Shown here piece after piece: positions 35,284 through 54,044 of a stretch of 64,000 bases of DNA. The position numbers were made by a program, and so were the translations under genes. The notes below the pieces were generated by a model that saw nothing but the letters and a program-made list of their open reading frames with translations, was not told where the DNA came from and searched no databases. Each line of letters opens with the position of its first letter. Position 1 is the first letter of the stretch. The DNA lies in the NCBI GenBank assembly GCA_022071945.1, contig JAJVIN010000001.1, forward strand, positions 62,001 through 126,000, in the 5' to 3' direction. This stretch comes from Thermoanaerobaculia bacterium (lineage in GTDB: Bacteria; Acidobacteriota; Thermoanaerobaculia; UBA5066).

Positions 35284-35290
35284 CGGGGCG

Positions 35291-35296
35291 ATTCTC
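35291..35296 (-). promoter_or_regulatory. -10 box GAGAAT for hutH
   Basis: On the minus strand GAGAAT ends 7 nt before the ATG at 35283. Only 33 bp separate the hutH and purA start codons, so each promoter extends into the other gene. Confidence 0.4.
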
Positions 35297-35304
35297 GCAT
35301 CGCT

Positions 35305-35310
35305 TAGAAT
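35305..35310 (+). promoter_or_regulatory. -10 box TAGAAT for purA
   Basis: TAGAAT ends 6 nt before the GTG at 35317, so the transcript would start at the codon itself. No Shine-Dalgarno site is present. Confidence 0.5.
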
Positions 35311-35316
35311 TGATGG

Positions 35317-37036: not shown

Positions 37037-40000
37037 ATGGCTGACCAGTTGACGACGAAGAGTGGCCTGAAACGCGCCGGCTCCCGGCCCGGATCGACCG
37101 CCAAAACCACCTTCTCGAAGGCCCTCTACCGTGGGGTGGCCGTGGCCTTCACGACGCTCGTCTGCATCCTTCCTTCCGCCGGACGGCATGCGGCAGCGGC
37201 CAACGCCTCCATCCTCCACATGCACGAACATCTCGACCCGGGACGGCCCTACGCCTCTCCCGTCCTCGACGGTGCTGGCTATCTCTACGGGACGACGTAC
37301 TTCGGGGGCCCCGCGAGCGCCGGAACGATCTCGAGGATCCGGACAGATGGAACCGGCGAGGAGGTCCTTCACTGGTTCACGGGTGGACCCCACAACGGCG
37401 CCAGACCTTATGCCGCCCCGATCCTGGATGGGGCGGGCTACCTGTACGGAACGACTGCCGGCGGCGGTCCCGCCGACGCCGGCACGATCTACAAGATCCG
37501 GACGAACGGCACAGGCTTCGAGATCCTCCATGCCTTCAGCGGCGACGGCACGACAGGCCTGGGACCAGACGTGTCTCTCGTACTGGACTCCTCGGGTTAC
37601 ATGTACGGAGTCTCCTACTACGGAGGGACGTCCGTCATTGACGGGGTCGTCTTTCGCCTCCGTACCAACGGGACCGGCTTTCAGGTCCTCCGAAACTTCA
37701 AGGGTGGCGCGTCGGACGGCTCCAATCCATACGCCTCGCTCATCCTCGACGAATCCGGATACCTCTACGGCACCACCGAGCGTGGCGGGGCGAACGACGG
37801 CGGCACCATCTTCAGGATGAAGACCGACGGAACGGGCTTCCAGCTCCTCCACTCTTTCGAGATGACTCGCGATGGCGGGTTCCGGCCGTCGTCCGCGCTG
37901 AGTCTCGACGGCGCCGGGAATCTCTACGGGGCGACGCCGTACGGCGGAACCAGCAACGTCGGAGTCGCCTTCACCATCAAGACGGACGGGACGGGTTTTC
38001 AGATTCTCCACTCGTTTGCCGGCGGCAGCTCGGACGGTGCATCGCCCGAGTCCGGCTTCGTCCTGGATGGCACGGGCAACCTCATCGGCACCACGTCGGC
38101 TGGCGGCGCACAGAATCTGGGCACGCTCTACACGATGAAAACCGATGGGAGCGGCTATCGGATCCTGCACTCATTCGACGGGTATCCGGGCGATGGCGAA
38201 CACCCTCTTTCTCCCCTCATCAGGGACAGCTCCGGAACACTCTTTGGGGCCACTCCGGGAGGCGGCAGTTCCAACTACGGAGCCGTCTTCAAGCTCCGGG
38301 CGGACGGGTCGGCGTTCCAGATCCTGTACTCGTTTCCGGGTGCCGGGAGCGACGGGATGTCCCCGTGGGCCGATCTCCTGCTCGACGGCTCGGGCACGCT
38401 ATTCGGCACGACATACGGTGGAGGCTCGGCCAGCCGCGGAACGGTGTTCGCGATGAGGCCCGACGGCTCGGGTTACAGGATCCTCCATTCGTTCTCGAGC
38501 GGCCTTTTCGATGGAGGCAGCCCGTACGCCGGCCTCGTCGTGGATTCCTCCGGCACCCTGTACGGAACCACGTACTACGGCGGGACGATGGATCTCGGGA
38601 CCGTCTTCAGGATCCGAACGGATGGCACGGGATTTCAGCTTCTCCATTCCTTTTCCTCGGCTCCTAGCGACGGCAGCCGCCCGCGTGCGTCTCTCGTTCT
38701 CGATGGGAAGGGGAACCTCTTCGGCACGACTCTTTATGGCGGGTCCCAGGGACTGGGAACAGTCTTCCGTCTTCGCACGGACGGATCCGGATTCGCGGTC
38801 GTGCACTCCTTCACGAACGGGGCGGCGGACGGCGCCTCTCCTTACGCGGCGCTGATCCTGGGTCAGTCGGACACCCTCTTCGGGACGACCTACGGAGGGG
38901 GCGAGGGGAGCTCCGGAACGGTCTTCTCGCTCCAGACGGACGGGACCGGTTTTCGCATTCTCCACTCCTTCAAGGGCGGGACATCGGATGGAAGCAGACC
39001 GTATTCCGCGGTGCTCCTGGACGGCGAAGGTTCCCTCTACGGCACCACCTATGGCGGAGGGACGTCGGGCGTCGGGACTCTCTACAAGATCAGGTCAGAC
39101 GGAACCGCATTCCAGCTCCTCCGGTCGTTCAAGGGAGGCACGAACGACGGAAGCCGCCCCTACTCCGCTCTGATCGCCGGATCAGGCGGCACCCTCTACG
39201 GGACCACGTATTCCGGAGGGCAGACGAACGACGGCACCGTCTTCAAGGTCGCAAATGACGGGACCGGGTTCGAGGTCCTCCATTTCTTCGCCCATGGCCA
39301 GGCGGATGGGGCCAATCCGGGGGCCGCCTTGGTGAGGGACGGCTCGGGAAATCTCTACGGAACGACTCCTCGCGGGGGCAACGGTGATTTCGGAACAGAG
39401 TTCGTGGTCCAGGATTCATGCGGTTCCGTCGTCCCGCCCGTCGTTCGCGCCCCGGCTGCCGTGACTCCCGCCCGGATCTTCAAGGCCGCTGTCGTCACCG
39501 AGCCGGGAATGACCTATCGCTGGGCCGTCTCTGGAAACGGGACCCTCACTTCGGGTCAGGGAACGTCCGCCATCACGATCACTCCCGGGTCAGAGGGAAC
39601 CGTCACGGTGAGAGTCACCGGAACGAACTCGGCCGGATGCCTCACTCCCGAGACATCCGTGACCGTGAGCATCCTCGAGCCGGCGAGGTTCCTGAGCCTG
39701 CAATCGGGCAAGGTGCTTGTCCACGTGGCCTGGAGGAGCCAGTACAGTGGTCAATCGGGCATCGCCACGGCCATCCCGAAGGGAGACCAGTTCGGATACT
39801 TCTACTTCTCTGACGCGAACAACCCGGAGGTCTTCGTCAAGGTCCTGGATTTCGGTGCGTCCTCGCCGTACCTCCTCTTCTGGGCCGGACTGACGGACCT
39901 GGAGTACACGGTGTTCTTCACAAACACCTCCACGTGGACGAGCACGTCCTTCAACAAGCCAGCCGGGAGCACGGCCGGGGGCGCGAATACGACCAGCCTG

Positions 40001-40546
40001 CCTCACGTGCGAGCCGTGGCGTGGGATCCGGACTTGAATGTCGTCCGAGAGCTCCCTGGACCGGAACTCCAGGCGGGAGCCGGGGCGGGCGATAGACGGA
40101 AGGGAACCGAGAACCCTGAAAAGGCGAACCCGTGGGCTGTCGAGTTGCGGCGGAACGTCCCCGGCCCCGCCGGTGACGGTGAGATCCTCCTTGCAAACGG
40201 CCAGGTAGCGGTTTCTGTCTCCTGGCGCAGCCAGTACAGCGGGCAGTCGGGGATGGCCACTGCGATCCCGCAGAAAGACGAGTTCTGCTTCTTCACCTTC
40301 TTTGACCAGCAGAACCCCGAGGTCTTCGTGAAGGTTCTCGACTGGGGGCCCCAGGTGCCATTCAAGATCTTCGCGGCCGGACTGACAGACCTGGAATACG
40401 AGGTCACTTTCAGAAACGTGAGGTCGGGCGCGGCTGTGACGTTCAAAAAGCAGCCGGGCACCTACGACGGATACGCCGCGAACATGGAGCGGTGTGAGGG
40501 GACGGCGCCGGCCGGAGTCAGAACGCCAGGATCACGGCCAGCGTGA
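37037..40546 (+). CDS. Exported protein with 14 Gloeo/Verruco-type repeats and duplicated C-terminal module
   Basis: A 1169-residue protein. A twin-region signal (hydrophobic near residues 33-55, ending GRHAAAA) is followed by 14 repeats of about 53 residues. Each repeat runs: hydrophobic-LHSF, GGxxDGxxP, LDGxGxLYGTTxxGG, GTVFxIRTDGTG. This is the TIGR03803-like pattern and probably a beta-propeller-like surface structure. Residues about 790-880 look like an Ig/PKD domain (TYRWAVSGNGTLTSGQGTSA). The C-terminus has two homologous modules of about 105 residues, each with WRSQYSGQSG, TAIP, NPEVFVKVLD and GLTDLEY. AAGGAGG is 5 nt before the ATG. The 138-bp gap upstream has a possible TAGCAT -10 box near 36993. 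Cell-surface role unknown. Confidence 0.85.
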   Translation: MADQLTTKSGLKRAGSRPGSTAKTTFSKALYRGVAVAFTTLVCILPSAGRHAAAANASILHMHEHLDPGRPYASPVLDGAGYLYGTTYFGGPASAGTISRIRTDGTGEEVLHWFTGGPHNGARPYAAPILDGAGYLYGTTAGGGPADAGTIYKIRTNGTGFEILHAFSGDGTTGLGPDVSLVLDSSGYMYGVSYYGGTSVIDGVVFRLRTNGTGFQVLRNFKGGASDGSNPYASLILDESGYLYGTTERGGANDGGTIFRMKTDGTGFQLLHSFEMTRDGGFRPSSALSLDGAGNLYGATPYGGTSNVGVAFTIKTDGTGFQILHSFAGGSSDGASPESGFVLDGTGNLIGTTSAGGAQNLGTLYTMKTDGSGYRILHSFDGYPGDGEHPLSPLIRDSSGTLFGATPGGGSSNYGAVFKLRADGSAFQILYSFPGAGSDGMSPWADLLLDGSGTLFGTTYGGGSASRGTVFAMRPDGSGYRILHSFSSGLFDGGSPYAGLVVDSSGTLYGTTYYGGTMDLGTVFRIRTDGTGFQLLHSFSSAPSDGSRPRASLVLDGKGNLFGTTLYGGSQGLGTVFRLRTDGSGFAVVHSFTNGAADGASPYAALILGQSDTLFGTTYGGGEGSSGTVFSLQTDGTGFRILHSFKGGTSDGSRPYSAVLLDGEGSLYGTTYGGGTSGVGTLYKIRSDGTAFQLLRSFKGGTNDGSRPYSALIAGSGGTLYGTTYSGGQTNDGTVFKVANDGTGFEVLHFFAHGQADGANPGAALVRDGSGNLYGTTPRGGNGDFGTEFVVQDSCGSVVPPVVRAPAAVTPARIFKAAVVTEPGMTYRWAVSGNGTLTSGQGTSAITITPGSEGTVTVRVTGTNSAGCLTPETSVTVSILEPARFLSLQSGKVLVHVAWRSQYSGQSGIATAIPKGDQFGYFYFSDANNPEVFVKVLDFGASSPYLLFWAGLTDLEYTVFFTNTSTWTSTSFNKPAGSTAGGANTTSLPHVRAVAWDPDLNVVRELPGPELQAGAGAGDRRKGTENPEKANPWAVELRRNVPGPAGDGEILLANGQVAVSVSWRSQYSGQSGMATAIPQKDEFCFFTFFDQQNPEVFVKVLDWGPQVPFKIFAAGLTDLEYEVTFRNVRSGAAVTFKKQPGTYDGYAANMERCEGTAPAGVRTPGSRPA

Positions 40547-41338: not shown

Positions 41339-43102
41339 CTACGGGATTATGGGAAAGTCCCCTTCAGAGGCCTTCTGAACGGGGAAGGGCTTCAGCTCGC
41401 TTCTGGCGACCTGTTGTGTGGCGGGATCGGTCAGCGTCACCTGGAGCTCCAGCACTTTGCCGTGCACCAGACTCGCGGGAACGACGCCCTCCCATGCCTC
41501 GCCCCGGCTCGTGAGACGGACCTCCAGCGGTCGTCCCGCTTCCATGACGAGGAGACCGGCCGTGCCTCTCCTCCCGCCGCCCACCACGACACGAACCACG
41601 GCGTCCTTCTTCTCCCTGAGCGGAGAAGCGAACGTGATCTGAACGTCTCTCAAAAGGTGATCGAAGAGGACCGCCGCGGGTTCGTCACGCCTGGGCAGCG
41701 GCGGGATGGCGGTTGCAGGGGGAGCTTGCGGTACGGCCTCCTCGGCCGGTCGTTGCGCGGCCGGCGCGGCGGGAACACTCGCGCCCGGTGAGAGGTCCGC
41801 CTTCTTCGTCGCAAGAGGTTCCCGCTCTGTCTTGTCTGGCGGAGCCGTGGCCGGCTTCTTTTCGCTGAAGGCGACTTGGCGTCCCGAAAGAGACGGGGTC
41901 GGAGCCGGAACCGTTCCCGGCGGCGCCTCCTGGAGGACCGTGGGGACAGTCCTGAGCGCTTCCCGCGGAGCGATGCCTGGGGCCGGATCCTGGGACGCAA
42001 GAGCGGGACTGTCCGGCTTCACGGGTCTTCTCGAGGCGACGAGTATCGCTGCCACCGCAATCGCTCCCACGGCGGAAAGGACGCCAGCAACAAGCCAGTT
42101 TCTCCCCGGGGAGCGAGCGGTGGATTCCAGAACCGGCGGCAAGGAGGTGCTCACCTTCGGAGCCGTCTCTATGACGACGACACGCTCCGTGGAGTCACCA
42201 GGCGTGCCGTCACCGGACGCATGCGAATCCAAACCCGGAGGCACGGCCCCCGCCTCGACGGATTCCGACAGAAGAGCCCGGCGCAGAGCCGACACGAAGG
42301 CCTGACAGGAGGGGAACCTCTCCTCGGGCTTCTTCGCGAGGACTCTCGAGATCACGCTGTCGACGCCGGGAGCCAGGCCGGGGGCGAGGGTCGAAACCGG
42401 CACCGGTTGCTCGTAGACCGTCCGGTGCACCCTTGCCACACTCGAACTCGCTTCGAAGGGCTCCTTTCCCGTCAGAAGCCAGTAGGCCAGGACGCCAAGG
42501 GAGAACTGGTCCGTCGCGGGCCCCGCGGGCTGCCCCTGCGCCTGCTCGGGCGACATGAATCCGGGCGTTCCCATCACGAAGCCCGTGGCCGTCAGCCTGA
42601 GGCCCTCGACACTCCGCGCCAAGACGAAATCCGACAGGAACAGGTGGCCGTTCTCGTCGAACAGGATGTTGGCGGGCTTCACGTCTCGGTGGACGATGCC
42701 CTTCCCGTGTGCATGGTCGAGCGCGGCCGCGAGGTGCGCGAGCCCCGTCAGCTGTTCCTCGACCGTGTTCCATCGGCCGGGATCGGCCAGATCCCCGCCC
42801 GGCATCAGAGCCATGACGAGGAATGCGCGGTGCTCGTCCTCGCCGAAGTCATGGACGGGGACGATGTGAGGGTGGATCAGCGAGGCGGCGAGCCTCGCTT
42901 CCTGCACGAACCTCTCCATGAATCCGGGCTGTTCGGCGATGTGAGGGAGGACCAGCTTCACCGCGACGTGACGCTGGAGCTTGGGGTCGAAGGCCCGCCA
43001 GACCTGGGCCATCCCGCCCGCGCCGAGCCTCTCCTCGAGCTGGTAACGCCCGAGACGCAGTCCGCTCCCCGCGGTTCCCGCTCCGGTGGGTCCTTCTCGC
43101 AT
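41339..43102 (-). CDS. Ser/Thr protein kinase with membrane anchor and DFV motif
   Basis: A 587-residue PknB-like kinase. The kinase domain (residues about 18-275) has RLGAGGMAQVWRAFDPKLQR, the lysine in VAVKL, HRDVKPANILF, then LSDFVLARS where DFG would be expected, and GTPGFMSPEQ. A Pro/Ser linker leads to one transmembrane segment (NWLVAGVLSAVGAIAVAAIL) and a periplasmic Pro-rich part. The end has a small beta domain (FDHLLRDVQITFASPLREKK to the end). The start is ATG 43102 with AGGA upstream; a longer frame from 43174 adds an unsupported Arg-rich leader. It is in the same orientation as the VOC gene just upstream, with a 25-nt gap. Confidence 0.88.
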   Translation of the reverse strand: MREGPTGAGTAGSGLRLGRYQLEERLGAGGMAQVWRAFDPKLQRHVAVKLVLPHIAEQPGFMERFVQEARLAASLIHPHIVPVHDFGEDEHRAFLVMALMPGGDLADPGRWNTVEEQLTGLAHLAAALDHAHGKGIVHRDVKPANILFDENGHLFLSDFVLARSVEGLRLTATGFVMGTPGFMSPEQAQGQPAGPATDQFSLGVLAYWLLTGKEPFEASSSVARVHRTVYEQPVPVSTLAPGLAPGVDSVISRVLAKKPEERFPSCQAFVSALRRALLSESVEAGAVPPGLDSHASGDGTPGDSTERVVVIETAPKVSTSLPPVLESTARSPGRNWLVAGVLSAVGAIAVAAILVASRRPVKPDSPALASQDPAPGIAPREALRTVPTVLQEAPPGTVPAPTPSLSGRQVAFSEKKPATAPPDKTEREPLATKKADLSPGASVPAAPAAQRPAEEAVPQAPPATAIPPLPRRDEPAAVLFDHLLRDVQITFASPLREKKDAVVRVVVGGGRRGTAGLLVMEAGRPLEVRLTSRGEAWEGVVPASLVHGKVLELQVTLTDPATQQVARSELKPFPVQKASEGDFPIIP

Positions 43103-43127
43103 CGTTTCCTGAGATCCTATCCCTGCG

Positions 43128-43559
43128 CTACCTTCTCTCGCGGGCTCTCCGCGCCAGCTCCTCCGGCGGGACATCCTCCACGTGTGTCGCGATCCACCAC
43201 TTGTTTCCGGAAGGGTCCTTGATCCCCGCGTTGCGGTCGCCGTAGAACTGATCCGCGGGCTCCATCAGAGACTCGCCTCCAGCCTGGATGGCCTGACGGT
43301 AGAGAGCATCCGTGTCAGGCACGTAGAGGTAGAGGGACGAGGGCATGGGCGGGAAACCCTCCATCGCCTCGCCCATCATCACCATCGAGTCGCCAATGCG
43401 GACCTGAGCGTGCATCACTCGGCCCGTCCCGTCGGACGTGCGTTCGATCTCCGTCGCCCCGAGCGCCGCCTTCAAGAACTCGAGGAGCCCTGGGACACCC
43501 TCTACGACAAGGTACGGAGTCACGGTATGGAATCCCTCAGGAATCGGCTTCACTGCCAT
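43128..43559 (-). CDS. VOC family (PhnB/glyoxalase-like) protein
   Basis: A 143-residue protein of the vicinal oxygen chelate fold: FHTVTPYLVVEGVPGLLEFL, RVMHAQVRIGDSMVMMGEA, SSLYLYVPDTDALYRQAIQA and DRNAGIKDPSGNKWWIATH. The pattern, with PYL then DPxGNxW, matches the PhnB-like subgroup, whose members include small-molecule binders and putative dioxygenases or isomerases. The ATG at 43559 follows GGGAGGG by 5 nt. Substrate unknown. Confidence 0.87.
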   Translation of the reverse strand: MAVKPIPEGFHTVTPYLVVEGVPGLLEFLKAALGATEIERTSDGTGRVMHAQVRIGDSMVMMGEAMEGFPPMPSSLYLYVPDTDALYRQAIQAGGESLMEPADQFYGDRNAGIKDPSGNKWWIATHVEDVPPEELARRARERR

Positions 43560-43756: not shown

Positions 43757-46700
43757 ATGCCGCCCGCTCCCCTGGCACCTGCTCCTCCCCTCCCAGGTTC
43801 CGATCAGTTTGGCGCCGCCGTCTCCGCGATCGAGGCCGAACTCGCTTCGCCGATGGGTCAACGGGATCGCGTCCTGGCCGCTTGTGAAGTCCTTCGCTCC
43901 TGCCCCGACGCCCTTGCCGGTCCCGACGGCTCCCGGGCCGCTCAGAAGCTGGCTCTCCTCGTCATCAAGAAGGCGGGCGCCATCGTCGAGCCCGTCGCGG
44001 CTCTTCTTCTCGAAAGCACTCTCCTTTCTCCCTCCCCCTGGCCGGTCCTCGAGGCGCTCCTGGCGGCCCCGAACAAGAAGGTCGCCCAGCCAGCCCTCGA
44101 GCAGACCGCCAGGCTCGCCGCGGAGGGAAGGCTCACGGTCACGCTCCGGGTGGCGGAGAGCCTCGCGGCCATCAGCGAGACCTCCGGTTCGGTCCTCGGC
44201 GAGAAGGCGTCTCTGAGCCTCCTGGGCCAGATCCTCTCGCGCCTCCTGCCGTGGAAGCCCGAACAGAGCGTGGAGCTCACGGACCTCGTGGTCGAGGCTC
44301 CGGATCACAAGCTCCGCCACCTCGTCGCCCGGCTTCTGGACCTCTCGGGCACGCCGCCCCCGCCTTCGCTCGCGACCCGGATTCTGGGAGAAGAAGCCAC
44401 GACCTTCCTGGCTCCTTACCTCGCCTTCACCCGTGCCAGTCACGTCGACCTCCTCGATCTCGTCGTGGAGCCTGGCTCGCCGCCGCCTGCCCTGGACTCG
44501 ATCAGGAAGGCAGAGTCGGAGTGCGGATCGGCCCTCCTTCGAGAGATCCTCGCCGAGCTCGGCTGGCGCCGGGTCAGCGCGGGCCTCTCGGTTCACCCGT
44601 TCGCGGCCGTGTCGGTCGGCGGCTCGTTCCCTCTGTTGATGCGTCCGGCAGAAGCCCTCCTCGTCGAGGATCCGCCCCAGGTCCGGCGCGTCTTCGATCG
44701 CTGGCTGGCCGTGGCGCACGGGGGAACCCTGGCCCACGACGTGGAGGACGCCTCCGACGACGATCCGGTCAATCGATTCCGCCTCCTGAACGTGCGGCAC
44801 GCCGACATCCTCGGGGACTTTCTCGACGTGGCCCCCCTCACGGCCGAGAAGGTCCGCCACGTCCTGCAAAGAATGGACGGAATCGTCGAGGACTACACGG
44901 TTCTCTTCCGGACACGAGCCGCTGAGGAGTGCGGCGTCGTCCTCGACGTCTATCGTGACTTGAAGGCCCGGGTCGAGCGGGAGCTCGAGGCCGCCCAGAA
45001 GGGCCGCCCTCTCACGATCGAACTGACCCGTCTGGTCCAGATGTTCGAGGACCCGCGGAACGCGGGAGAGGTCCGCACCCTTCACGGCCTGAAGCGCTAT
45101 CTTCACCAGAAGGGGCTGAAGCTCGGCTTCAAGCTGGCCGAGGCCGTCAGGGGAACGAACAGGACAGTCGACCTCGCCGTCGCGACTCCCCTGCGCGTCA
45201 TCCATGTCGCCAGGGTCCTCGAGTACGTCGATTTTGAGAAGGAGCCGGAGGAGAACGAGGAGACCCTCGGCATCCCATGGCCGGTCTGGATTGCGGCCGA
45301 GGGCTTCTCGCGGCAGCTCCTGCACGGCCAGCAGAACCTGCCCAGGCTGAGGGCCTTCTGCTACGGCAACGAGGTCCACTACTACCTGACGTTCCGGAAC
45401 CACCCGGTCTTCGTCCGGGTCGACTACGCCCCTCCGCTTCGAGGGGGCATGGTCGATCTCGAGTACTACGGGGTCAGCAAGTACGAGCTCGACTCGCACC
45501 CGAACCCGTCCCTCGATGGCATTGGCCGGTTCTTCAAGAAGCTCGACATCAACGTCGAGATCGACAACACCCGGATCCACGCCCGGTACGACAAGGAGCG
45601 AGCCGTCGACCTCGCGGACCTCTGCGAGAAGGTCGAGGCGGTCTTCAGGCTCGCACCCTACCTGATGGACATCGACTGGGTTTCTGGCGGCCTGGCCCTC
45701 GACCCCGACGCCAGAGAAGCCGTCGCCGACGCCTGGGCGGCGTTCTTCTCCCGCTGGGGCGTCCTCCCCCTCTCACAGATCCTCTCGGCCGACAAGCTGG
45801 GGATTCTCGTCTCGCTCGAACCGGACGTGACGGGCGTCAAGGAGGTTCGATGGAACGGGAAGGGACCGTACCGCGACCGCTTCTCCACGGGTTCTCTCGC
45901 CTTCTTCTGGGAGAAGGTCAGGGCCGCGCTTCTCGAGAAGGGGCTCCGCGATCTGGCCGCCTTTAGAAGTGGCGAGGAAGTGGCCCAGTTGAGCCTCGAG
46001 CGCGAGGTCTTGCGGCCGCTGCGAGCCGCGGTCTGTCGAGGGGAAGTCCTCGAATCCGCTCAGGGGATCGGACCCGCCGAGCCCGCCCTGTACCAGAAGA
46101 CCCACGAGGCGAGGCGGTTTGCGGAGCTCCTCGCCAGAGACAGCGCGAACCTGATCCGGTCATCGCGGGTGGCCCGGCTCGCGTCGGCCCTGGAAAAGCA
46201 CCTGCGATTCCAGTCGACGGGATCCGTGAACGGATACGACGTCCAGCGGGCCGTCTTGCCGCTGAAGGGCGAATCGATCACCCTGTTCGTACTCCGGGAC
46301 AGCGCATCGGTCTACCGCCTCGCCTTCTTCACTTTCGAGGGCCCCGTCTTCAGAAGACGGCAGGGACCGTCGGACGAATGGGTCGAGAACGCTCTTTTCG
46401 ACTCCGACGTCCTCGCCCAGCGGCTTCTGAGAAACAACCTCCCCGCGTCGGGACTCGAGTCCGAAACCGCTTCCGCCGAAGCCGCCGCGGAGTCGCTCCG
46501 GGCGATCTTCCGCATCCCGAATCCCCACGAGCACGCGCCCCGGCTTCCCGGAGAAAGGCTCGTCCAGGGGATCGCGGCCGCACCCGGACACGCGGTCGGG
46601 ATCGCCCGCCTCGGGCTTGGAGGCCGTCAGCCGGAAGACGTCGACGGCGCGATCCTCGTGGCTGCCTCCGTGCGTCCAGAGGACGGTCCGCTCCTTTTCC

Positions 46701-48778
46701 GCGCCGCGGGAGTGGTCTCAACGGGCGGCGGGGTTCTCTCTCATGCGGGTCTTCTGGCCATGCAATTCGGAAAGCCCGCGCTCGTCGTTCCCGGCACGTG
46801 GGAGGTGACACCGGGCGGGACCCTCTCGATCGGCTGCCGCCGGTTCGAGTTCGACGAGGAGACGGTCGAGGCCTTCGGCATGCGGGTCGTGGAGAAACGC
46901 AACCTCCGAGAAGAGGAGGACAGGATCGCGGACGGGGACCTCCTCGTTCTCGATGCGGACTCGGACGTGCTTCGCGTGCTCGGGCAGGACCGCGACACGC
47001 TTGCTCTCCACGATGGTCTGCATCAGCTGACACACTCGGTCAGAAGCCTGGCCGTCGCGACGTCCGACGAGGACATCCTCAACCTGAGAGGGCGAAGGCT
47101 GCGGGCCCGGCGCCAGATCGAGAAGCTCTTTTCCCGGATGGCCGATCCGGTCCTCGCCTGTCACGCCGTGCGCGAGCTCCTGGCTGGCGAGGCCGCCTCG
47201 TGCCGTGCCGACCAGGGCGAGCTTCTTCGTGAGCTCTTGCGGAACCGGTCCGTGGGCGACGCCGCTCGCGCCGCGATCCATCAGATCGCCTCGGATCTGA
47301 GGAGGTGGCACGCGGCCGAGTGCGAGGAAGCGGCGAGCCTGATCCCGACCTCCGCCGACGCCCATGAGATCCTGGCTCTCAGAAGAGATGCCCTGAGGCT
47401 CGGAGATCGTCTGGCGGTCGCGACGAGCTGCCTTTCGGCATGCGGAATCTCCCTCGATCTCGGGCCGGTTCCCCAGGAGCTCGACTCGATCGCCCGGCCG
47501 CGGCTTCTCGAGCTCAGAGCCGGACTCGAAACGTCGATGCTCGGTGCAATCGAACCCGGCGGGAACCCCCGCCACCTTCGTCACCTGCTGCGCCAGGTGA
47601 TCAGGCTGGACGGGATCCTCGGCGCACCTGTCCGCGAGCCCGGTCTCATCGAGACACTGGAGAGACGAGTCCTCGATGAGGACGAGGCGGTGCTCTCCCG
47701 GCTGGCGAACCGCAGGGTGCTGACGGACCGGGATGGAGGGATCGAGCTGAGACCTCACGTCGGCTCCAAGGCCGCGGCACTGGCCGAGGCTTCGCAGCTC
47801 GGCGAGGGATCGAGAATCCCGCCATGGTTCGTCATCACGGACCTGGCGTTTCGGGATGTGCTCGAGGGCCCCGCGCCCGATCTCTCGGCCCTTCCCGGGA
47901 CGGGGGGGCCAGGCTTCACCCTCGGGCGGCTGATCGAGGAGATCCTCGCGCGGAAAGACTGGGACGCGGGAACGAAATCCACGCTGATTCGACGCGCCTG
48001 GAAGTCCGCGACTCTTCCTCCTTCGCTCGTGGAGGAAATCAACGACGCGCTCTCACCGCTCTCGAGGACAGAGCGCCCATTCGTGGCCATCCGGTCCTCG
48101 GCCCGCGAAGAAGACACCGAGACGGACGCGAGAGCCGGAGAGTTCGACACCTTCCTCTTCGTTCCGTGCGGTCCGGCCGTTCTCGAGTTCCTGAGGCTCG
48201 CCTGGGCCGGGCTCTGGAATCAACGGTCGCTCCTCAACCGCCAGGCCACGGGCCGCGACACCGCCGTCATCGGAGGGGGCGTGCTCATTCAGCACATGGT
48301 CGACTCGCGGGTCTCCGGCGTCCTTCACACCGTCAACGTTGCCGAAAACCGGCCGAGAGAGGTCCTGATCAACGCGGGACTCGGTCTGGGTGAAGGGGTC
48401 GTCTCCGGGCTGGTCGCCGCCGATCAGATCACGGTCGAAAAGGACGCGGCGCTCTCCGGCGACGACATGCACTTCCGCTACCTGACGCGCGACAAGAGAG
48501 ACCGGATCGTCTTCAACACGCGGACGGGAGCGGGCACGCAACGCGTGGAGACCCTGTACCACCAGCGTCTGAGGCCGGCTCTGGAGTACGTCGAGCTGTG
48601 CGAGCTCGTTCACGCGGCCATCCGCCTCGAGGCCCTCCACGGCCACCCCCTGGACATCGAGTTCGCCATAGAAGGAGCCGGGCTCTGCCTCCTGCAGATC
48701 CGCCCCGTGCCCGCAGCCCTGGCTGTCTGGACCGAGACGGCCTCACGTTATCCGATTGCGCCAGGAGACCGCCGATGA
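43757..48778 (+). CDS. Giant PEP-synthase/PPDK-related protein with rearranged domains
   Basis: A 1673-residue protein. Residues 1-920 have no recognised domain: helical repeats, then a mixed region with FRNHPVFVRVDYAPP and DLEYYGVSKYELDSHPNP. Residues about 930-1020 are the phosphohistidine swivel domain (GIAAAPGHAVGIARLG, then STGGGVLSHAGLLAMQFGKP, catalytic His996). Residues about 1335-1660 are the pyruvate-phosphate-dikinase-type ATP-grasp domain: GSKAAALAEA, FVAIRSSAREEDTETDARAG, GLGEGVVSGLVAADQITVEK, LDIEFA and LLQIRPV. The PEP/pyruvate TIM barrel is absent, and the swivel precedes the ATP-grasp, the reverse of PpsA. AGGAGG is 7 nt before the ATG. The stop overlaps the next start (ATGA). 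ATP-dependent phosphotransfer to an unknown acceptor is likely. Confidence 0.85.
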   Translation: MPPAPLAPAPPLPGSDQFGAAVSAIEAELASPMGQRDRVLAACEVLRSCPDALAGPDGSRAAQKLALLVIKKAGAIVEPVAALLLESTLLSPSPWPVLEALLAAPNKKVAQPALEQTARLAAEGRLTVTLRVAESLAAISETSGSVLGEKASLSLLGQILSRLLPWKPEQSVELTDLVVEAPDHKLRHLVARLLDLSGTPPPPSLATRILGEEATTFLAPYLAFTRASHVDLLDLVVEPGSPPPALDSIRKAESECGSALLREILAELGWRRVSAGLSVHPFAAVSVGGSFPLLMRPAEALLVEDPPQVRRVFDRWLAVAHGGTLAHDVEDASDDDPVNRFRLLNVRHADILGDFLDVAPLTAEKVRHVLQRMDGIVEDYTVLFRTRAAEECGVVLDVYRDLKARVERELEAAQKGRPLTIELTRLVQMFEDPRNAGEVRTLHGLKRYLHQKGLKLGFKLAEAVRGTNRTVDLAVATPLRVIHVARVLEYVDFEKEPEENEETLGIPWPVWIAAEGFSRQLLHGQQNLPRLRAFCYGNEVHYYLTFRNHPVFVRVDYAPPLRGGMVDLEYYGVSKYELDSHPNPSLDGIGRFFKKLDINVEIDNTRIHARYDKERAVDLADLCEKVEAVFRLAPYLMDIDWVSGGLALDPDAREAVADAWAAFFSRWGVLPLSQILSADKLGILVSLEPDVTGVKEVRWNGKGPYRDRFSTGSLAFFWEKVRAALLEKGLRDLAAFRSGEEVAQLSLEREVLRPLRAAVCRGEVLESAQGIGPAEPALYQKTHEARRFAELLARDSANLIRSSRVARLASALEKHLRFQSTGSVNGYDVQRAVLPLKGESITLFVLRDSASVYRLAFFTFEGPVFRRRQGPSDEWVENALFDSDVLAQRLLRNNLPASGLESETASAEAAAESLRAIFRIPNPHEHAPRLPGERLVQGIAAAPGHAVGIARLGLGGRQPEDVDGAILVAASVRPEDGPLLFRAAGVVSTGGGVLSHAGLLAMQFGKPALVVPGTWEVTPGGTLSIGCRRFEFDEETVEAFGMRVVEKRNLREEEDRIADGDLLVLDADSDVLRVLGQDRDTLALHDGLHQLTHSVRSLAVATSDEDILNLRGRRLRARRQIEKLFSRMADPVLACHAVRELLAGEAASCRADQGELLRELLRNRSVGDAARAAIHQIASDLRRWHAAECEEAASLIPTSADAHEILALRRDALRLGDRLAVATSCLSACGISLDLGPVPQELDSIARPRLLELRAGLETSMLGAIEPGGNPRHLRHLLRQVIRLDGILGAPVREPGLIETLERRVLDEDEAVLSRLANRRVLTDRDGGIELRPHVGSKAAALAEASQLGEGSRIPPWFVITDLAFRDVLEGPAPDLSALPGTGGPGFTLGRLIEEILARKDWDAGTKSTLIRRAWKSATLPPSLVEEINDALSPLSRTERPFVAIRSSAREEDTETDARAGEFDTFLFVPCGPAVLEFLRLAWAGLWNQRSLLNRQATGRDTAVIGGGVLIQHMVDSRVSGVLHTVNVAENRPREVLINAGLGLGEGVVSGLVAADQITVEKDAALSGDDMHFRYLTRDKRDRIVFNTRTGAGTQRVETLYHQRLRPALEYVELCELVHAAIRLEALHGHPLDIEFAIEGAGLCLLQIRPVPAALAVWTETASRYPIAPGDRR

Positions 48779-51030
48779 TCCGAAACGAGGAAGCCCTCGA
48801 CTACCACTCCGGTGAACGGGCCGGCAAGCTCGAAGTCCGGCCGGTCAAGCCCTGCCTCACGCCCCGGGAGATGAGACTCGCCTACCTGCCGGGAGCCCGG
48901 GCCGCGTGCGAGGCCATCGTCGAGGAGATCGACAACGTCTTCAAGTACACCGCGAAAGGGAACCTCGTCGGCGTCATAACCGATGGTTCGGCGGTGCCAG
49001 GCCTCGGGGCGATCGGACCTCTGGCCGCCAAGCCAATGCAGGAAGGGATGGCCCTCCTCTTCAAGCGCCTGGCGGACATCAACGCCTTCGACCTGGAGCT
49101 CGACACGAAAGACCCGGACCGCTTCATCGAGACCGTGCGGATCCTCGCCCCGACATTCGGGGCCGTCATCCTCAAGGATCTGCGTGCCCCCGAGGGGCTC
49201 TACATTCACGAGAAGCTCGACCAGCTCCTGAGCATCCCGGTCTTTCACGAAAACCTGCAGAGCACGGCCGTCGTGGCGACCGCCGCCCTCACGAACGCCC
49301 TGGCCCTCGTGGAGAAGGACATCGCCAGCGTCAAGGTCGTCGTGTGCGGCGCCGGAACCCTCGGGATCGGCTGTACGCGTCTCTTCCTGAGAGCTGGCGT
49401 CCGTCCCGAGAACCTCCTTGTCTACGACATCCACGGACTCCTGTCCGAGGGACGCGAGGACCTCAACCTCTACCAGCGGGAATTCGCCCGCCGCGAGGGC
49501 CCGGTGACGCTTGGGGAAGGACTTCGCGGAGCGGACGTCTTTGTCGGAGCCTCGGCCGCCGGGGTCGTCTCCGTCGAGATGGTCCGATCGATGGCTCGCT
49601 TCCCCATCGTCTTCGCCCTGGCGACCCCCGAACCGGAGATCGCCTACGAGGCGGCGCGCGCGTGCCGGCACGACGTGATCGCGGCGACGAGCCTCGCCCA
49701 GTACCCCAACGCGATCGTCGACCTCCTCAGCTTCCCGTACGTTCTCAGGGGCGCGCTCGACGTTCACGCGACCCGTATCACGGACGCGATGCTTCTCGCG
49801 GCCGCGGGCGCCCTTTCGGAGCTCGGCCGGGAAGAAGTCGTCGAGGAAGTGAGCCGGGCCTACGGGTGGGAGCGGCTCTCCTTCGGTCCCGAGTACCTGC
49901 TGCCGACGCCGGTGGACCCGAGGATCCTCATCCGCGAGTCGACCGCGGTCGCTCGGCAAGCCGTCGAGGACGGCGTGGCCCAGCGCCCGGTCGACGCGGC
50001 CGAGTACCAGGAAAGCCTGACGCTCAGGCTCGGAACCGGGCGCGAGATGCTCAGACGCCTGATCGTCGCCGCGCGACAGCAACGCCCCCGCGTGGTGTTC
50101 GCCGAGGGAACGACCGAGACGATCGTGCGGGCGGCCAGCGTCTTGCTCGAGGAGGGGGTCGCCCTGCCGACTCTCCTGGGGCCCGAGGCGGAAGTTCGGT
50201 CACTGATCGAGAGGCTGGGCCTCGAGGCTTCCGGACTCTCGATCGTGGATCCCGCCCGGACTCAGAGGCGAGAGGCGTATGCCGAGGAGTACCACAAGAT
50301 GCGGCGGCGCCGCGGCGTCATGAAGTCGACGGCTCTCGAGCGCCTGCGCAGTCCGGACTACGTCGCCGCCATGATGCTCCACGCCGGCGACGCCGACATG
50401 ATGATCTCTGGACTTGCCGAGCACTATGCGGACTCGCTCCGGACCATCCTGGAAGTGATCGGCCCCGCGCCCGGGGTTCGCCGGATCTCCAGCCACTACA
50501 TGGTCCTCATGCCCCGCGAGGTCCTCTTCATCGCGGACTGCGCCGTCAACGTCGACCCGGATTCGGAAGATCTCGCCGAGATCGCCCTCCTGACCGCCAG
50601 CGCCGCCAAGGCACTCGGAATCGAGCCCCGCGTGGCCATGCTCTCGTTCTCCAACTTCGGCAGCGTCGATCACAAAATGTCGCGAAAAGTCCGGGATGCG
50701 ACGGAGATCGTCAAGAGCCGCGCTCCCGAGCTCGTGGTCGACGGCGAGATGCAGCTGACGACGGCCCTCAACGCCGAGGTGAGACAGCACTACTTCCCCT
50801 TCTGCGAGCTGAAGAAGAACGCGAATGTCCTCGTCTTTCCCGACCTGCAGGCGGGAAACCTCGCGCTTCAACTCCTGCAGGAAACGGGAGACGCCGTCCT
50901 CGTCGGACCCATCCTGATGGGAACGAAACGGCCTGTTCACCTCTTGCAGTACCGGAGCTCGGTGCAAGAGATCGTCAACCTGGCCGTCACGGGCATCGTC
51001 CAGGCCTACGCCTTGCGGCACCCCGAGTGA
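48775..51030 (+). CDS. MaeB-type malic enzyme-phosphotransacetylase fusion with degenerate malic site
   Basis: A 751-residue protein with the MaeB layout. The malic-enzyme domain (residues 20-420) keeps MRLAYLPGARAAC, GNLVGVITDGSAVPGLGAIG and the NAD-binding VVVCGAGTLGIGC. The PTA-like domain spans about 430-751 (RVVFAEGTTETIVRAASVLL, DADMMISGLAEHYADSL, VAMLSFSNFGSVDH). Key catalytic positions differ from MaeB. EGK is EGM (Met92), the metal-site LED is LKD (Lys134), and FHDDQHGTA is FHENLQSTA (Glu159, Asn160). Decarboxylation of malate therefore seems unlikely. The start overlaps the PEP-synthase-like stop, so both are made together. A long open frame upstream of 48775 is antisense/shadow. 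Confidence 0.85.
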   Translation: MIRNEEALDYHSGERAGKLEVRPVKPCLTPREMRLAYLPGARAACEAIVEEIDNVFKYTAKGNLVGVITDGSAVPGLGAIGPLAAKPMQEGMALLFKRLADINAFDLELDTKDPDRFIETVRILAPTFGAVILKDLRAPEGLYIHEKLDQLLSIPVFHENLQSTAVVATAALTNALALVEKDIASVKVVVCGAGTLGIGCTRLFLRAGVRPENLLVYDIHGLLSEGREDLNLYQREFARREGPVTLGEGLRGADVFVGASAAGVVSVEMVRSMARFPIVFALATPEPEIAYEAARACRHDVIAATSLAQYPNAIVDLLSFPYVLRGALDVHATRITDAMLLAAAGALSELGREEVVEEVSRAYGWERLSFGPEYLLPTPVDPRILIRESTAVARQAVEDGVAQRPVDAAEYQESLTLRLGTGREMLRRLIVAARQQRPRVVFAEGTTETIVRAASVLLEEGVALPTLLGPEAEVRSLIERLGLEASGLSIVDPARTQRREAYAEEYHKMRRRRGVMKSTALERLRSPDYVAAMMLHAGDADMMISGLAEHYADSLRTILEVIGPAPGVRRISSHYMVLMPREVLFIADCAVNVDPDSEDLAEIALLTASAAKALGIEPRVAMLSFSNFGSVDHKMSRKVRDATEIVKSRAPELVVDGEMQLTTALNAEVRQHYFPFCELKKNANVLVFPDLQAGNLALQLLQETGDAVLVGPILMGTKRPVHLLQYRSSVQEIVNLAVTGIVQAYALRHPE

Positions 51031-51045
51031 GTAGACCGGCGGTTT

Positions 51046-53148
51046 TCAGGCCGGCTTGGGGTCCGGCACGCCGAGCCTGCCGGGATAAAGCCGCGTGGCG
51101 CTGAACCAGCCGACCGCCGTCAGAAAGCCCAGAAGAAGCCACCAACCGGTGCTGGCGAGCCTCGGCAGTTCCCGCGCGTAGCCCGGGACGAAATCCGACT
51201 CGGAGACGTTCACGGTGTAGGAGACGAACTGGAGGGGCTTTCTGGGCGAGTGCTCTCTGTAGACGCCTCCTGGAAACTTCCGGACGAGGAAGTCCAGCAG
51301 TTCGCGCCGGTCGAACAACAGGAAGCTCATCGGCTGGGCCGTTGGGGCCGGAAGCGCCTCGACCACCGCCTGATCCCCATCGAGGATCCGGTTGCTGGGA
51401 TTGAAGAACCGGAACGTCTCCTCGCTCTTCTTCGTGAACGCCGAGAAGATGTAGATGTTCGTCTCGAGTGGGAGCGAGGCGATGAAACGGCTGGCCCGCA
51501 TGCGAGGCCGGGCGTTGTCCGCCACGAGCTCCATGTAGAGAGACCAGTGGTGCCCCGCCAGGAAAACGAGGAGCCCCGCCGCCCCTGCCCGGAGAGCCAG
51601 GTGCCTGCCCGGAGTCAGCTCTCCGAGAGAGTGCATGAGATAGGCCCCGGCCAACCCGGCGATCAGGCAGATCGCCGGAATCGCGACGTTCAAGTGCGGC
51701 CAGAAGGGCGGATCTGCAGTGAGCACACCTCCGAAGATGAAGGTCAACAAGAACCAGCTGAGAAGACCCACGGCTCCCGGGTCCTTCAATCTCGCCAGGC
51801 AGAGTCCGAATCCCACGGTGAAGAGAACAGCCGTCAGCGCGCCCACCATGGGCCGCGGAAACCCGAAATGAGTGCTCTGATCCGCGTAGAAGTAGAGGGT
51901 CAAGAAAGAGCGCCGAAGCTGCTCGCGCACCACGACCGCCCGGGAGTCCGTCGCGTACTTCGACATCGAATGCCTCATGATCTCGGGCGACCAGAGGACG
52001 ACGGAATTCGTCCGTCCCGAAAACTCCTTCGGCTTCTTCAAGGCGAATCCCACGGTCGGCCCGAGCCCGACGAGACTGCCCAGGGCGAACGTGAGGACGA
52101 CAGCCGCCTTGTCTTTCCTCGAGACGAGGGACCACACGGCCCAGGCCCCCAGGACGGCAACCGCCAAGAGCGGGCTGATACGGGCTGAATAGTAGGTGTG
52201 CAGACCGAAGCCGAGCGTGAGACCCGAGAGCGCCGCCCAGAACATCAATCCTTCTCTGAGGGCCCGCAACAGGAGGTAGAGGGAGAGCGTCACGAACAGC
52301 GTCGCGATCGGACCGAACAGGATGCGGCTGAAATGAATGTGCGTGTAGCTTCCCATCAGCATCGCCATGGCGATGAGGCCGGCCTGGCGGCCGAAGAGAA
52401 GCCGGCCGAGGAGAAAAACGAGAGGGACCGTCAAGGTGCCGGCCAGAACCGAGAACATGACGATTCCCTCGTGATCACCGCCGAAGAGCCTGACCCCTGC
52501 CGCCAGGATCTGGTGCGAGGCGTACGGATGACCCGAACTCGTCAGCCCCGTCCACTGCTCGATGTTCCCGGAGATGACGTCGAGCGTCTTGAGCCCCATG
52601 ACCCCCACATCGTTGTCGACGTGGGACGGAAACTCGGTCACGCGCCAGAAGCGGAAGAAGAACGCGATCGCCGTCGCGGCCCCCAGGATCAGCCACTCCC
52701 AGACCGCTATCTCCTTCGGAATGAACCTCGGAGATTCGGCCCGGTAGAGCGGAAGGAGAAGGGCAGCCCCCGAGAGGAGCCAGAGCCACCTGACGAGAGA
52801 CGTCTCTCCGAAGAATCCGTAGCTGACGAGGAGGGCGGCGAAGAGAATCGCGGAGGCGAGCAGCAACTTCGGCCTGACGTGAAACGCGGGCGCTTCCTCG
52901 CTCTCTGACCGCCGGGAGGAGAGCCCGTAGACGAGACCCGCCAGGACGGAGAATCCCAGGGCCACCATCGTCACCGTGGCCACTTTCTTCCACGGGTCTG
53001 GCTCGCGGAACCGAGTCAAGAATTCGCCCGTCAAGGAGTGCTGCGCCCACAGGGCGAGGCCGGCCGACACAAAGAGGACCGACCTGCGATGCCAGGAATT
53101 CGAGGGCCCCGGGATGAGTCGATCCGGCCTGCCTGGTTCAGAGTTCAT
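51046..53148 (-). CDS. Membrane glycosyltransferase, GT39/ArnT-like
   Basis: A 700-residue polytopic protein with about 12-13 transmembrane segments. The first large loop contains WRVTEFPSHVDNDVGVMGLK with the acidic pair expected for GT-C enzymes that use lipid-linked sugars. LTSSGHPYASHQILAAGVRL and the long C-terminal soluble part (about residues 560-665) also fit. It may transfer sugar from a polyprenyl phosphate to protein or lipid A-like acceptors outside the membrane. Start ATG 53148. It converges with the MaeB-like gene with a 15-nt gap. Confidence 0.85.
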   Translation of the reverse strand: MNSEPGRPDRLIPGPSNSWHRRSVLFVSAGLALWAQHSLTGEFLTRFREPDPWKKVATVTMVALGFSVLAGLVYGLSSRRSESEEAPAFHVRPKLLLASAILFAALLVSYGFFGETSLVRWLWLLSGAALLLPLYRAESPRFIPKEIAVWEWLILGAATAIAFFFRFWRVTEFPSHVDNDVGVMGLKTLDVISGNIEQWTGLTSSGHPYASHQILAAGVRLFGGDHEGIVMFSVLAGTLTVPLVFLLGRLLFGRQAGLIAMAMLMGSYTHIHFSRILFGPIATLFVTLSLYLLLRALREGLMFWAALSGLTLGFGLHTYYSARISPLLAVAVLGAWAVWSLVSRKDKAAVVLTFALGSLVGLGPTVGFALKKPKEFSGRTNSVVLWSPEIMRHSMSKYATDSRAVVVREQLRRSFLTLYFYADQSTHFGFPRPMVGALTAVLFTVGFGLCLARLKDPGAVGLLSWFLLTFIFGGVLTADPPFWPHLNVAIPAICLIAGLAGAYLMHSLGELTPGRHLALRAGAAGLLVFLAGHHWSLYMELVADNARPRMRASRFIASLPLETNIYIFSAFTKKSEETFRFFNPSNRILDGDQAVVEALPAPTAQPMSFLLFDRRELLDFLVRKFPGGVYREHSPRKPLQFVSYTVNVSESDFVPGYARELPRLASTGWWLLLGFLTAVGWFSATRLYPGRLGVPDPKPA

Positions 53149-53252: not shown

Positions 53253-54044
53253 TCACGCGGGCATGGGCGCCAGCGCGATCACCGAGAAGGGAGCGCCGAG
53301 GGGATCCGCCAGAACCGCGAATCTCCCCACGTTCTTGATGTCCATCGGCGGAACCCTGGCGCTTCCACCGAGGCTCGTGGCGTTTGACACCACCGCATCG
53401 CAGTCCGTGACCTGGAAATAGGGCATCCAGTGGGCAGGAGCGTCTCCGTACTCGGCCGTCATGGCCATGACCCCGCCAATGGGTTGAGTCTCGCGGTAGA
53501 TCTCGAGGTACTCGGGAACATCCGGGGACTCCGAACCCTTCAGCTGCCATCCGAAGAGACCCGAGTAGAACGTCTGGGCGCCTGCGGTGTTCCGGGTCGC
53601 GAGCTCCGTCCAGCAGAGGCTGGCCGGCTCGCCGACGATCCTGGCTCCGATGTGGCCTCTGGCCTCCCAGAGCGCGAAGACCGCTCCCTCTGGATCACTC
53701 ACGACAGCCATTCGGCCGATACCCTCGACGTCGAACGGCCCGAAGAGGACCTTCCCGTCGAGGTCCCGCGCCCTCGCCGCGGCTGCGTCGGCGGACTGCA
53801 CCGAGATGTAGCTCATCCAGTGGGAGGGCGTCCCGTGCTCCTTCTCTTTTTCACTCAGAAGACGGAGGGCCGCCACGTCCTGACCGCGAAGCTTCAGGAA
53901 GGTGTAGGTTCCTCCCGAGGTCGGGGCATCGACGGCCTCCCAACCGAAAAGCGCGGAGTAGAAGTCCTTGGCTCGCCGTGAGTCGGGGGTAGCCAGTTCG
54001 GGCCAGCAGAATGAACCGGGCAAAAGCTCGTTGCGCTCGGGCAT
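53253..54044 (-). CDS. Two-domain VOC (glyoxalase/bleomycin-resistance fold) protein
   Basis: A 263-residue protein with two homologous VOC modules. They begin PGSFCWPELATPDSRRAKDF and PASLCWTELATRNTAGAQTF, each followed by YSxLFGW, and each has HWMxY then RxAVxxDPxGAxF (SHWMSYISV/AHWMPYFQV; VSDPEGAVFALW/LADPLGAPFSVI). The family includes proteins annotated as 27-kDa antigen-like (CFP30B) VOC proteins. AAGGAG lies about 7 nt before the ATG at 54044. Substrate unknown. Confidence 0.9.
   Translation of the reverse strand: MPERNELLPGSFCWPELATPDSRRAKDFYSALFGWEAVDAPTSGGTYTFLKLRGQDVAALRLLSEKEKEHGTPSHWMSYISVQSADAAAARARDLDGKVLFGPFDVEGIGRMAVVSDPEGAVFALWEARGHIGARIVGEPASLCWTELATRNTAGAQTFYSGLFGWQLKGSESPDVPEYLEIYRETQPIGGVMAMTAEYGDAPAHWMPYFQVTDCDAVVSNATSLGGSARVPPMDIKNVGRFAVLADPLGAPFSVIALAPMPA

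Follow-up and report, generated by a model that had tools for sequence, protein, structure and literature searches.

A MaeB derivative that has lost its malic-enzyme centre is paired with a dikinase-type protein in uncultured bacteria, probably as part of a regulated phosphate-transfer machine

What can a protein built like a malic enzyme do once the residues for that reaction are gone, and what does the dikinase-type gene just ahead of it have to do with it? This question is raised by two genes in the 64,000-nucleotide stretch of DNA analysed here, referred to as the window. The protein concerned, P0001 (751 amino acids; 48775..51030; coordinates are positions in the window, and features lie on the + strand unless stated otherwise), was recognized as a seemingly dead paralogue of the hybrid malic enzyme MaeB by translation, Pfam, phmmer and a 40-member family. 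Pfam assigned it malic, Malic_M and PTA_PTB domains, which is the MaeB-type architecture. The malic-enzyme half covers residues about 1-415 (48775..50019; Pfam malic at 18-147 and Malic_M at 161-357, alignment to 6zn4 up to residue 415), and the PTA_PTB domain covers residues 426-738 (50050..50988). Using phmmer, we observed an end-to-end alignment of residues 4-745 with full-length MaeB structures (6zng, 629 bits). The Pfam scores were 342 bits for PTA_PTB, 59 for Malic_M and 51 for malic, compared with 322 and 248 bits for the malic domains of a two-domain malic enzyme that this genome also encodes; the low malic-domain scores beside the high PTA score fit with an altered malic half. The top NCBIfam model was 'NADP-dependent malic enzyme', reached with 663 bits against a model cut-off of 1178, and proteins of the P0001 type are thus easily mistaken for malic enzymes in reconstructions of uncultured bacteria.

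An earlier note on this DNA had claimed three altered sites in the malic-enzyme centre. The translation of 48775-51030 reads EGM (Met92), LKD (Lys134) and HENLQSTA, exactly as claimed; the extent of the change had even been understated, since both Asp of HDD are altered (Glu159 and Asn160) and not one, with at least five changes in the centre. We carried the residue numbers of BbMaeB, as given in the available text of PMC7902834, onto P0001 via the phmmer alignment. The catalytic Lys, K107, corresponds to Met92 (codon at 49048..49050), E149 to Lys134, D174 to Glu159 and the next Asp to Asn160. Lys134-Asp135 (49174..49179) thus gives LKD for LED (BbMaeB E149-D150), and His158-Glu159-Asn160 (49246..49254) gives HEN for HDD. 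K107 is described as the general base in that text and N300 as a contact of the nicotinamide; the equivalent of N300 is Thr284. Kept in P0001 are Tyr37 (BbMaeB Y52, the Tyr of the tautomerisation step), Asp135 (BbMaeB D150) and the dinucleotide-binding loop GAGTLG (49348..49365).

We observed the same losses throughout the family, in an alignment of 40 members made up of P0001 and 39 loci. The catalytic Lys was absent from all 40 (M18, I14, L3, V2, A2 and T1 at this position), and all four catalytic residues were replaced in 39 members and three in one, whereas K, E, D and D were all intact in 28 of 28 ordinary MaeB. Mapping the sites on aligned MaeB homologues, as the earlier note had proposed, thus speaks for its claim, and the P0001-type centre is not due to chance. 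Twenty-six ordinary MaeB from relatives, aligned as a control, were 44-49% identical and had an intact centre. The replacing residues were K in 34/40 at 134, E in 37/40 at 159 and N in 37/40 at 160, and the N300 equivalent was replaced in 39/40. Tyr37 and Asn312 were each kept in 39/40, Asp135 in 38/40, and the glycines of the dinucleotide loop in 39/40 (G192), 37/40 (G194) and 40/40 (G197). The selection postulated for this gene is borne out, as purifying selection, by identities of 67-74% to the orthologues of three relatives and of 46-74% over the 39 members. One strongly diverged member (L089; 46%, centre LQN/FNLD) still has the partner gene. In the tree, a single branch with a support of 100 split the P0001 family (43 rows) from ordinary MaeB (41 rows), and the family is, on this tree, one clade of common origin, separate from ordinary MaeB. 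Judged by these residues, P0001 is a MaeB derivative whose malic-enzyme centre is lost, and proteins of its type cannot act as malic enzymes by the known mechanism. Decay of a single gene was considered and rejected, because the same replacements are found in 40 members of many phyla with a conserved open frame.

Could the altered pocket have gained a reaction of its own? P0001 might catalyse a new, metal-free reaction with Lys134, Glu159 and Asn160; a C4 acid that P0002 makes in phosphorylated or CoA-linked form could be one such substrate. The replacement residues are indeed common to nine phylum-level labels, and the conservation of Tyr37, Asp135, Asn312 and the dinucleotide loop would fit such a pocket. 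However, the position of the catalytic Lys varies among Met, Ile, Leu, Val, Ala and Thr, as expected for a lost catalyst, and Lys134 is missing in 6/40 members. The conservation of the whole pocket exceeded that of random sets from the malic half (p 0.017), and that of the replaced positions alone did not exceed random sets drawn from the same domain (p 0.20); together, these two values limit any claim of a new pocket function. We consider a new reaction in P0001 quite improbable.

The PTA half gave a different picture, with CoA-contact residues mostly kept and an altered acyl pocket. R510, R556, Q660, N695, P712 and Q725, the counterparts of BbMaeB R535, R581, Q683, N718, P735 and Q748, are kept in 35-39 of the 40 members, and the equivalent of BbMaeB Y576 in 32/40. 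The residues of the acetyl pocket, T614, Y721 and K722 in BbMaeB, have mostly become Ala, Leu/Met and His/Gln in the P0001 family, so that acetyl-CoA itself may not bind P0001. Cys589 is invariant (39/39) where ordinary MaeB has Thr, and His550 (36/39) and His633 (34/39) are near-invariant. As a reference motif we used Ser-Arg, which we take to be the catalytic pair of the C-terminal loop of Pta (Methanosarcina Pta); in this column, in an alignment without an active Pta, we found Gln725-Tyr726 in P0001 and Gln-Arg in ordinary MaeB. We read the PTA half as predicting that CoA binding is kept and the acyl preference changed. This stays a prediction, since acetyl-CoA sites vary among MaeB clades according to the accessible part of PMC12704298. 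The acetyl-CoA sensing put forward in the earlier note is plausible as far as the CoA contacts are concerned and is made questionable by the altered acyl pocket. Compared with MaeB of E. coli and Bdellovibrio (6zng, 8jzo), P0001 is thus alike in its malic-Malic_M-PTA order, its end-to-end alignment and most CoA-contact residues of BbMaeB site 1, and differs in the catalytic Lys, the metal Glu, both Asp and the equivalents of N300 and T614/Y721/K722, in forming its own clade and in having an obligate partner gene.

This partner, P0002 (1,673 amino acids; 43757..48778), is of the dikinase type. The gene had been called PEP-synthase-like, which is accurate for the phosphoryl donor half. Pfam placed the phospho-His swivel (PEP-utilizers) at residues 963-1011 (46643..46789) and the ATP-grasp (PPDK_N) at residues 1333-1651 (47753..48709), the latter also matching rifampin phosphotransferase (RPH, 5hv1) in Foldseek at E 7e-18. 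His996 (46742..46744), the predicted phosphorylated residue, is His in 41/41 sequences. Lys1338 (41/41), Arg1446 (40/41), Glu1635 (40/41), Gln1647 (39/41) and Arg1649 (39/41), the remainder being gaps, are presumably the ATP-site residues known from PPDK and rifampin phosphotransferase. As far as conserved residues can tell, the donor half is intact. In the acceptor half the likeness to PEP synthase breaks down: at E 0.001, Pfam did not find PEP-utilizers_C, the PEP/pyruvate barrel (PF02896), in P0002, whereas the true PPDK of the same genome (L006), the positive control, scored 4.5e-61. Moreover, the domain order is reversed, with the swivel ahead of the ATP-grasp and about 930 amino acids of other sequence ahead of both. 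Chemistry on pyruvate/PEP is thus not indicated, and P0002 as a PEP synthase converting pyruvate to PEP was rejected since it has no barrel.

Of the uncharacterised sequence of P0002, the stretch at residues about 425-650 (45029..45706), in the N-terminal part, is conserved best, and we regard it from its conservation as a candidate acceptor or regulatory domain; K446, R447, H450, E539, H549, R554, R610, D612, K613 and D640 are invariant in 41/41. A model of residues 405-935 was confident (pLDDT 87.3), and Foldseek found nothing for it at E 0.001. Its best match in VIA-align 2 was the MotA C-domain at Z 6.0, where a Z below 8 may reflect a common arrangement, and model residues 102-261 gave type III secretion chaperones and biotin ligases at Z 4-5. 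By Foldseek, the model of residues 1010-1673 (pLDDT 86.5) matched rifampin phosphotransferase, HpeI and PEP synthase, with 5hv1 (RPH) and HpeI 9goj as best matches. P0002 therefore has ATP-grasp and swivel in common with PEP synthase and PPDK, including the invariant His and the ATP-site residues, and differs from them in the missing barrel, the domain order and the N-terminal extra sequence. Rifampin phosphotransferase and HpeHI also have ATP-grasp and swivel, and their acceptor module, like the candidate one of P0002, is not the PEP barrel. HpeH consists of a substrate-binding domain and a swivel, and the HpeH-HpeI small-molecule dikinase, as described in the available text of PMC12167813, resembles P0002 in domain content and has another acceptor module. 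The candidate acceptor module of P0002 is without a clear RPH match, and the MaeB-like subunit is extra to both systems.

How tightly are the two proteins tied? In the window, the P0002 stop overlaps the P0001 start by 4 bases (ATGA, 48775..48778) and the downstream neighbour (51046-53148) is convergent to P0001, so that the operon seems to consist of P0002 and P0001 alone. The translational coupling proposed earlier is conserved, with a 4-base overlap in 20/38 loci and at most 60 bases in 36/38. Other genomes with the pair, which the earlier note had suggested looking for, were found at 39/39 uncut loci of a genome scan, in 5 genomes of the home phylum and in 10/10 cases in the phylum of L110. 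The scan covered 84,980 species genomes (genome_contigs) with the P0002 alignment and two short P0002 peptide patterns; it undercounts, and lone P0001 orthologues are outside its reach. It yielded 50 P0002 loci, all with titles of MAGs or uncultured organisms. A P0001 orthologue stood directly behind P0002 in every uncut locus, under nine phylum-level labels (Acidobacteria, Gemmatimonadetes, Desulfobacterota groups, Calditrichota, Bacteroidota/Ignavibacteria, Krumholzibacteriota, Eisenbacteria, Planctomycetota and Anaeromyxobacter), and in the other 11 of the 50 loci, which include Neomarinimicrobiota as a cut P0002 only, the contig ends within or just past P0002.

Lone P0001 copies were sought in the relatives, in the home phylum and in the phyla of L081 and L110; the home-phylum and L110-phylum sets overlap partly with the 50 scan loci. 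Among 60 relatives, the P0001 orthologue (67-74% identity) adjoins the P0002 orthologue in three genomes, which are also among the scan loci and two of which are titled Thermoanaerobaculia. In two relatives (G007 and G013) a contig breaks off within P0002, leaving an N-terminal piece of it, and the P0001 orthologue was not found in either genome; they are uninformative and no counter-example, since P0002 is cut and both genomes are incomplete. Among the 396 genomes of the home phylum, P0002 was found in 5 and the P0001 orthologue in the same 5. The next-best MaeB of this phylum (at most 50% identity) were all of the intact type, and P0002 was not found in the six genomes with such a MaeB in which it was sought. 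In the phylum of L110 (80 genomes), the P0001 orthologue occurred in 10 genomes, always paired; P0002 was above threshold in nine, and in the tenth (G787) what is left of the sequence preceding the MaeB-like gene contains the end of P0002. The phylum of L081 says little on pairing, as the gene was found in that genome only, of 296. Separate occurrence of the two genes, named beforehand as a refutation of the proposed complex, was looked for and was not found among the loci and genomes tested. The distances within P0001 and P0002 were correlated (r 0.84, 38 sequences, common descent not corrected for). No P0001-P0002 fusion was seen at these loci; open frames of 2,356-2,596 amino acids behind some MaeB-like genes are, in our reading, frames that overlap in GC-rich DNA. 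By this co-occurrence, P0001 and P0002 are an obligate pair, a dead MaeB with an intact dikinase donor, and wherever a test was possible the pseudoenzyme was accompanied by its partner. Spanning nine phylum-level labels, it is a rare clean case of the conversion of a central-metabolism enzyme into a subunit.

Together the two proteins probably make up a so far undescribed machine for regulated phosphate transfer in central carbon metabolism. More specifically, we propose, with a probability of about 0.5 and from sequence comparison, a ligand-gated phosphotransferase in which the dead MaeB would be the sensor or scaffold. The two gene products would form one machine. As in PEP synthase, rifampin phosphotransferase and HpeHI, the ATP-grasp of P0002 would phosphorylate His996 of the swivel (ATP to AMP and Pi). 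From there the phosphoryl group would pass to an acceptor held by P0002's own N-terminal module (residues about 425-700); the barrel being absent, pyruvate bound to it would not be the acceptor. P0001 would be a repurposed MaeB serving as an obligate regulatory or scaffold subunit. Its PTA half should bind an acyl-CoA and its malic half, with the dinucleotide loop kept, perhaps NAD(P), and the Lys134-Asp135/Glu159-Asn160 set that replaces the Mg2+/Lys centre may allow metal-free binding of a C3/C4 acid. The ligand state of P0001 would gate P0002. A narrower idea is tentative and somewhat doubtful: the pair would represent an undescribed two-gene enzyme class of uncultured bacteria, its permuted dikinase using a new acceptor domain to phosphorylate a C3/C4 metabolite and its dead MaeB exerting control by reading acyl-CoA and dinucleotide state. 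If true, the pyruvate-malate-oxaloacetate node would have a new branch that is driven by ATP and gated allosterically, and hosts in which a C3/C4 acid is phosphorylated would have an extra metabolic step. To our knowledge, such a step is absent from known metabolic maps. Among the open-access papers searched, we found no account of the P0001/P0002 pair or of a malic-enzyme pseudoenzyme.

The main rival explanation, which we judge unlikely, dispenses with a small-molecule acceptor: P0002 would be a protein-histidine phosphotransfer kinase of the VadK type that acts on P0001 or on other C3-C4 node enzymes. VadK (Rv1127c) of M. tuberculosis is a truncated PPDK derivative in which the PEP domain is missing; it undergoes autophosphorylation on His, and its interaction with enzymes of the methylcitrate cycle links it to metabolic enzymes (PMC13400623). 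P0002 is also without the barrel and is always accompanied by one metabolic-enzyme-like protein, in which His550, His633 and Cys589 are conserved. On the other hand, its large and very conserved N-terminal domain, with about 10 invariant polar residues, resembles a site for ligand binding or catalysis more than the remnant of a kinase. VadK is about 50 kDa, has the ATP-binding domain first and lacks a large N-terminal domain, and the accessible text of PMC13400623 describes no MaeB-like partner for it. We prefer the ligand-gated phosphotransferase.

Among the proteins encoded in the genome of the window are a two-domain malic enzyme, a full Pta and, besides a PPDK, further PPDK_N proteins; an ordinary full-length MaeB was not found in it. 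Ordinary MaeB is also encoded in 20/28 genomes with the pair, so that the dead form is extra and not a decayed sole copy, and the pair adds to the node and does not replace it. One might thus suppose that P0001 mainly regulates ordinary MaeB through mixed hexamers, P0002 being a chance or loose operon neighbour, all the more as ordinary MaeB lies right beside the pair twice (L092 and L094). This is very improbable, because ordinary full-length MaeB was not found in the other 8/28 genomes with the pair nor in that of the window, and the tie to P0002 is absolute while that to MaeB is not.

The neighbourhood of the pair was analysed in an inner set of 95 proteins out of 116 listed ORFs (nearest two ORFs per side; ORFs below 100 or above 900 amino acids and some others dropped) and an outer control set of 98 out of 115 ORFs, ORF calling being crude in GC-rich loci. 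The L079 oxaloacetate decarboxylase, which was over the size limit, and the L092 MaeB fragment were added to the inner set by hand, so that the family counts are biased. No third gene was common to the loci; with the pair set aside, called neighbours clustered across 8/51 loci at most, and the three members of this cluster that were scanned are secreted proteins carrying FlgD_ig/Por_Secre_tail domains. P0001 and P0002 matched 0 families of PADLOC-DB at E 0.01, and a defence system was rejected given this absence and neighbours without any sign of one. A C4-acid gene was among the nearest neighbours in 7/35 loci: besides the two loci with ordinary MaeB, oxaloacetate decarboxylase is a near neighbour in three (L084, L113 and L079, where it lies on the same strand, 80 bases upstream of the pair), L101 has an Ldh/MDH-type gene and L088 a Na_sulph_symp transporter. 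This neighbourhood is suggestive, and we grade it no higher since the 98 outer controls also hold citrate synthase and pyruvate kinase. Finally, single stops were seen within the matches of L119, L118 and L130 and within the G425 and G443 matches; the L110 stop (G443 gene) falls after residue 744, which is the natural protein end.

The reversed domain order of P0002, the dikinase-type protein encoded directly upstream of the MaeB-derived P0001, was shared by a 1,040-aa protein from another genome (G191, contig C45; L140:397-3516), in which the PEP-utilizers domain (residues 404-495) likewise lies ahead of PPDK_N (742-1034). Judging from this protein, permuted dikinases perhaps constitute a wider family. 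The same genome has the P0002/P0001 pair as well. PPDK_N similarity to P0002 was also observed in open frames of about 1,000 to 1,200 aa (L017-L026) from many species, all of one genus of the class; the species bearing these frames are without P0001 orthologues.

In the most diverged member of the P0001 family (L089:11773-14019), which sits on a long branch at 46% identity, not even the new pocket residues remain; the sites read LQN and FNLDLYS. Despite this divergence, its P0002 partner gene is retained.

Elsewhere, the pair starts 215 bases downstream of a phage-type integrase (L095:5294-6526) and, at another locus, 272 bases downstream of a CitMHS-type transporter with TrkA_C domains (L111:4676-6451), which is left out of the count of C4-acid neighbours (7/35 loci). 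In the window, the pair adjoins a Ser/Thr kinase gene (41339-43174, minus strand), and a glyoxalase-fold protein is encoded at 53253-54044 (minus strand), whose similarity to the AfsK-binding protein KbpA is sub-threshold (132 bits; cut-off, 250).

The window also encodes a 1,169-aa protein (37037-40546) with 14 tandem GloVer repeats (TIGR03803, 597 bits) and a PKD-like domain. In the longest frame of the histidine ammonia-lyase (33751-35661), homology does not set in before residue 130, and the real start of the protein probably lies inside that frame, not at its first codon.
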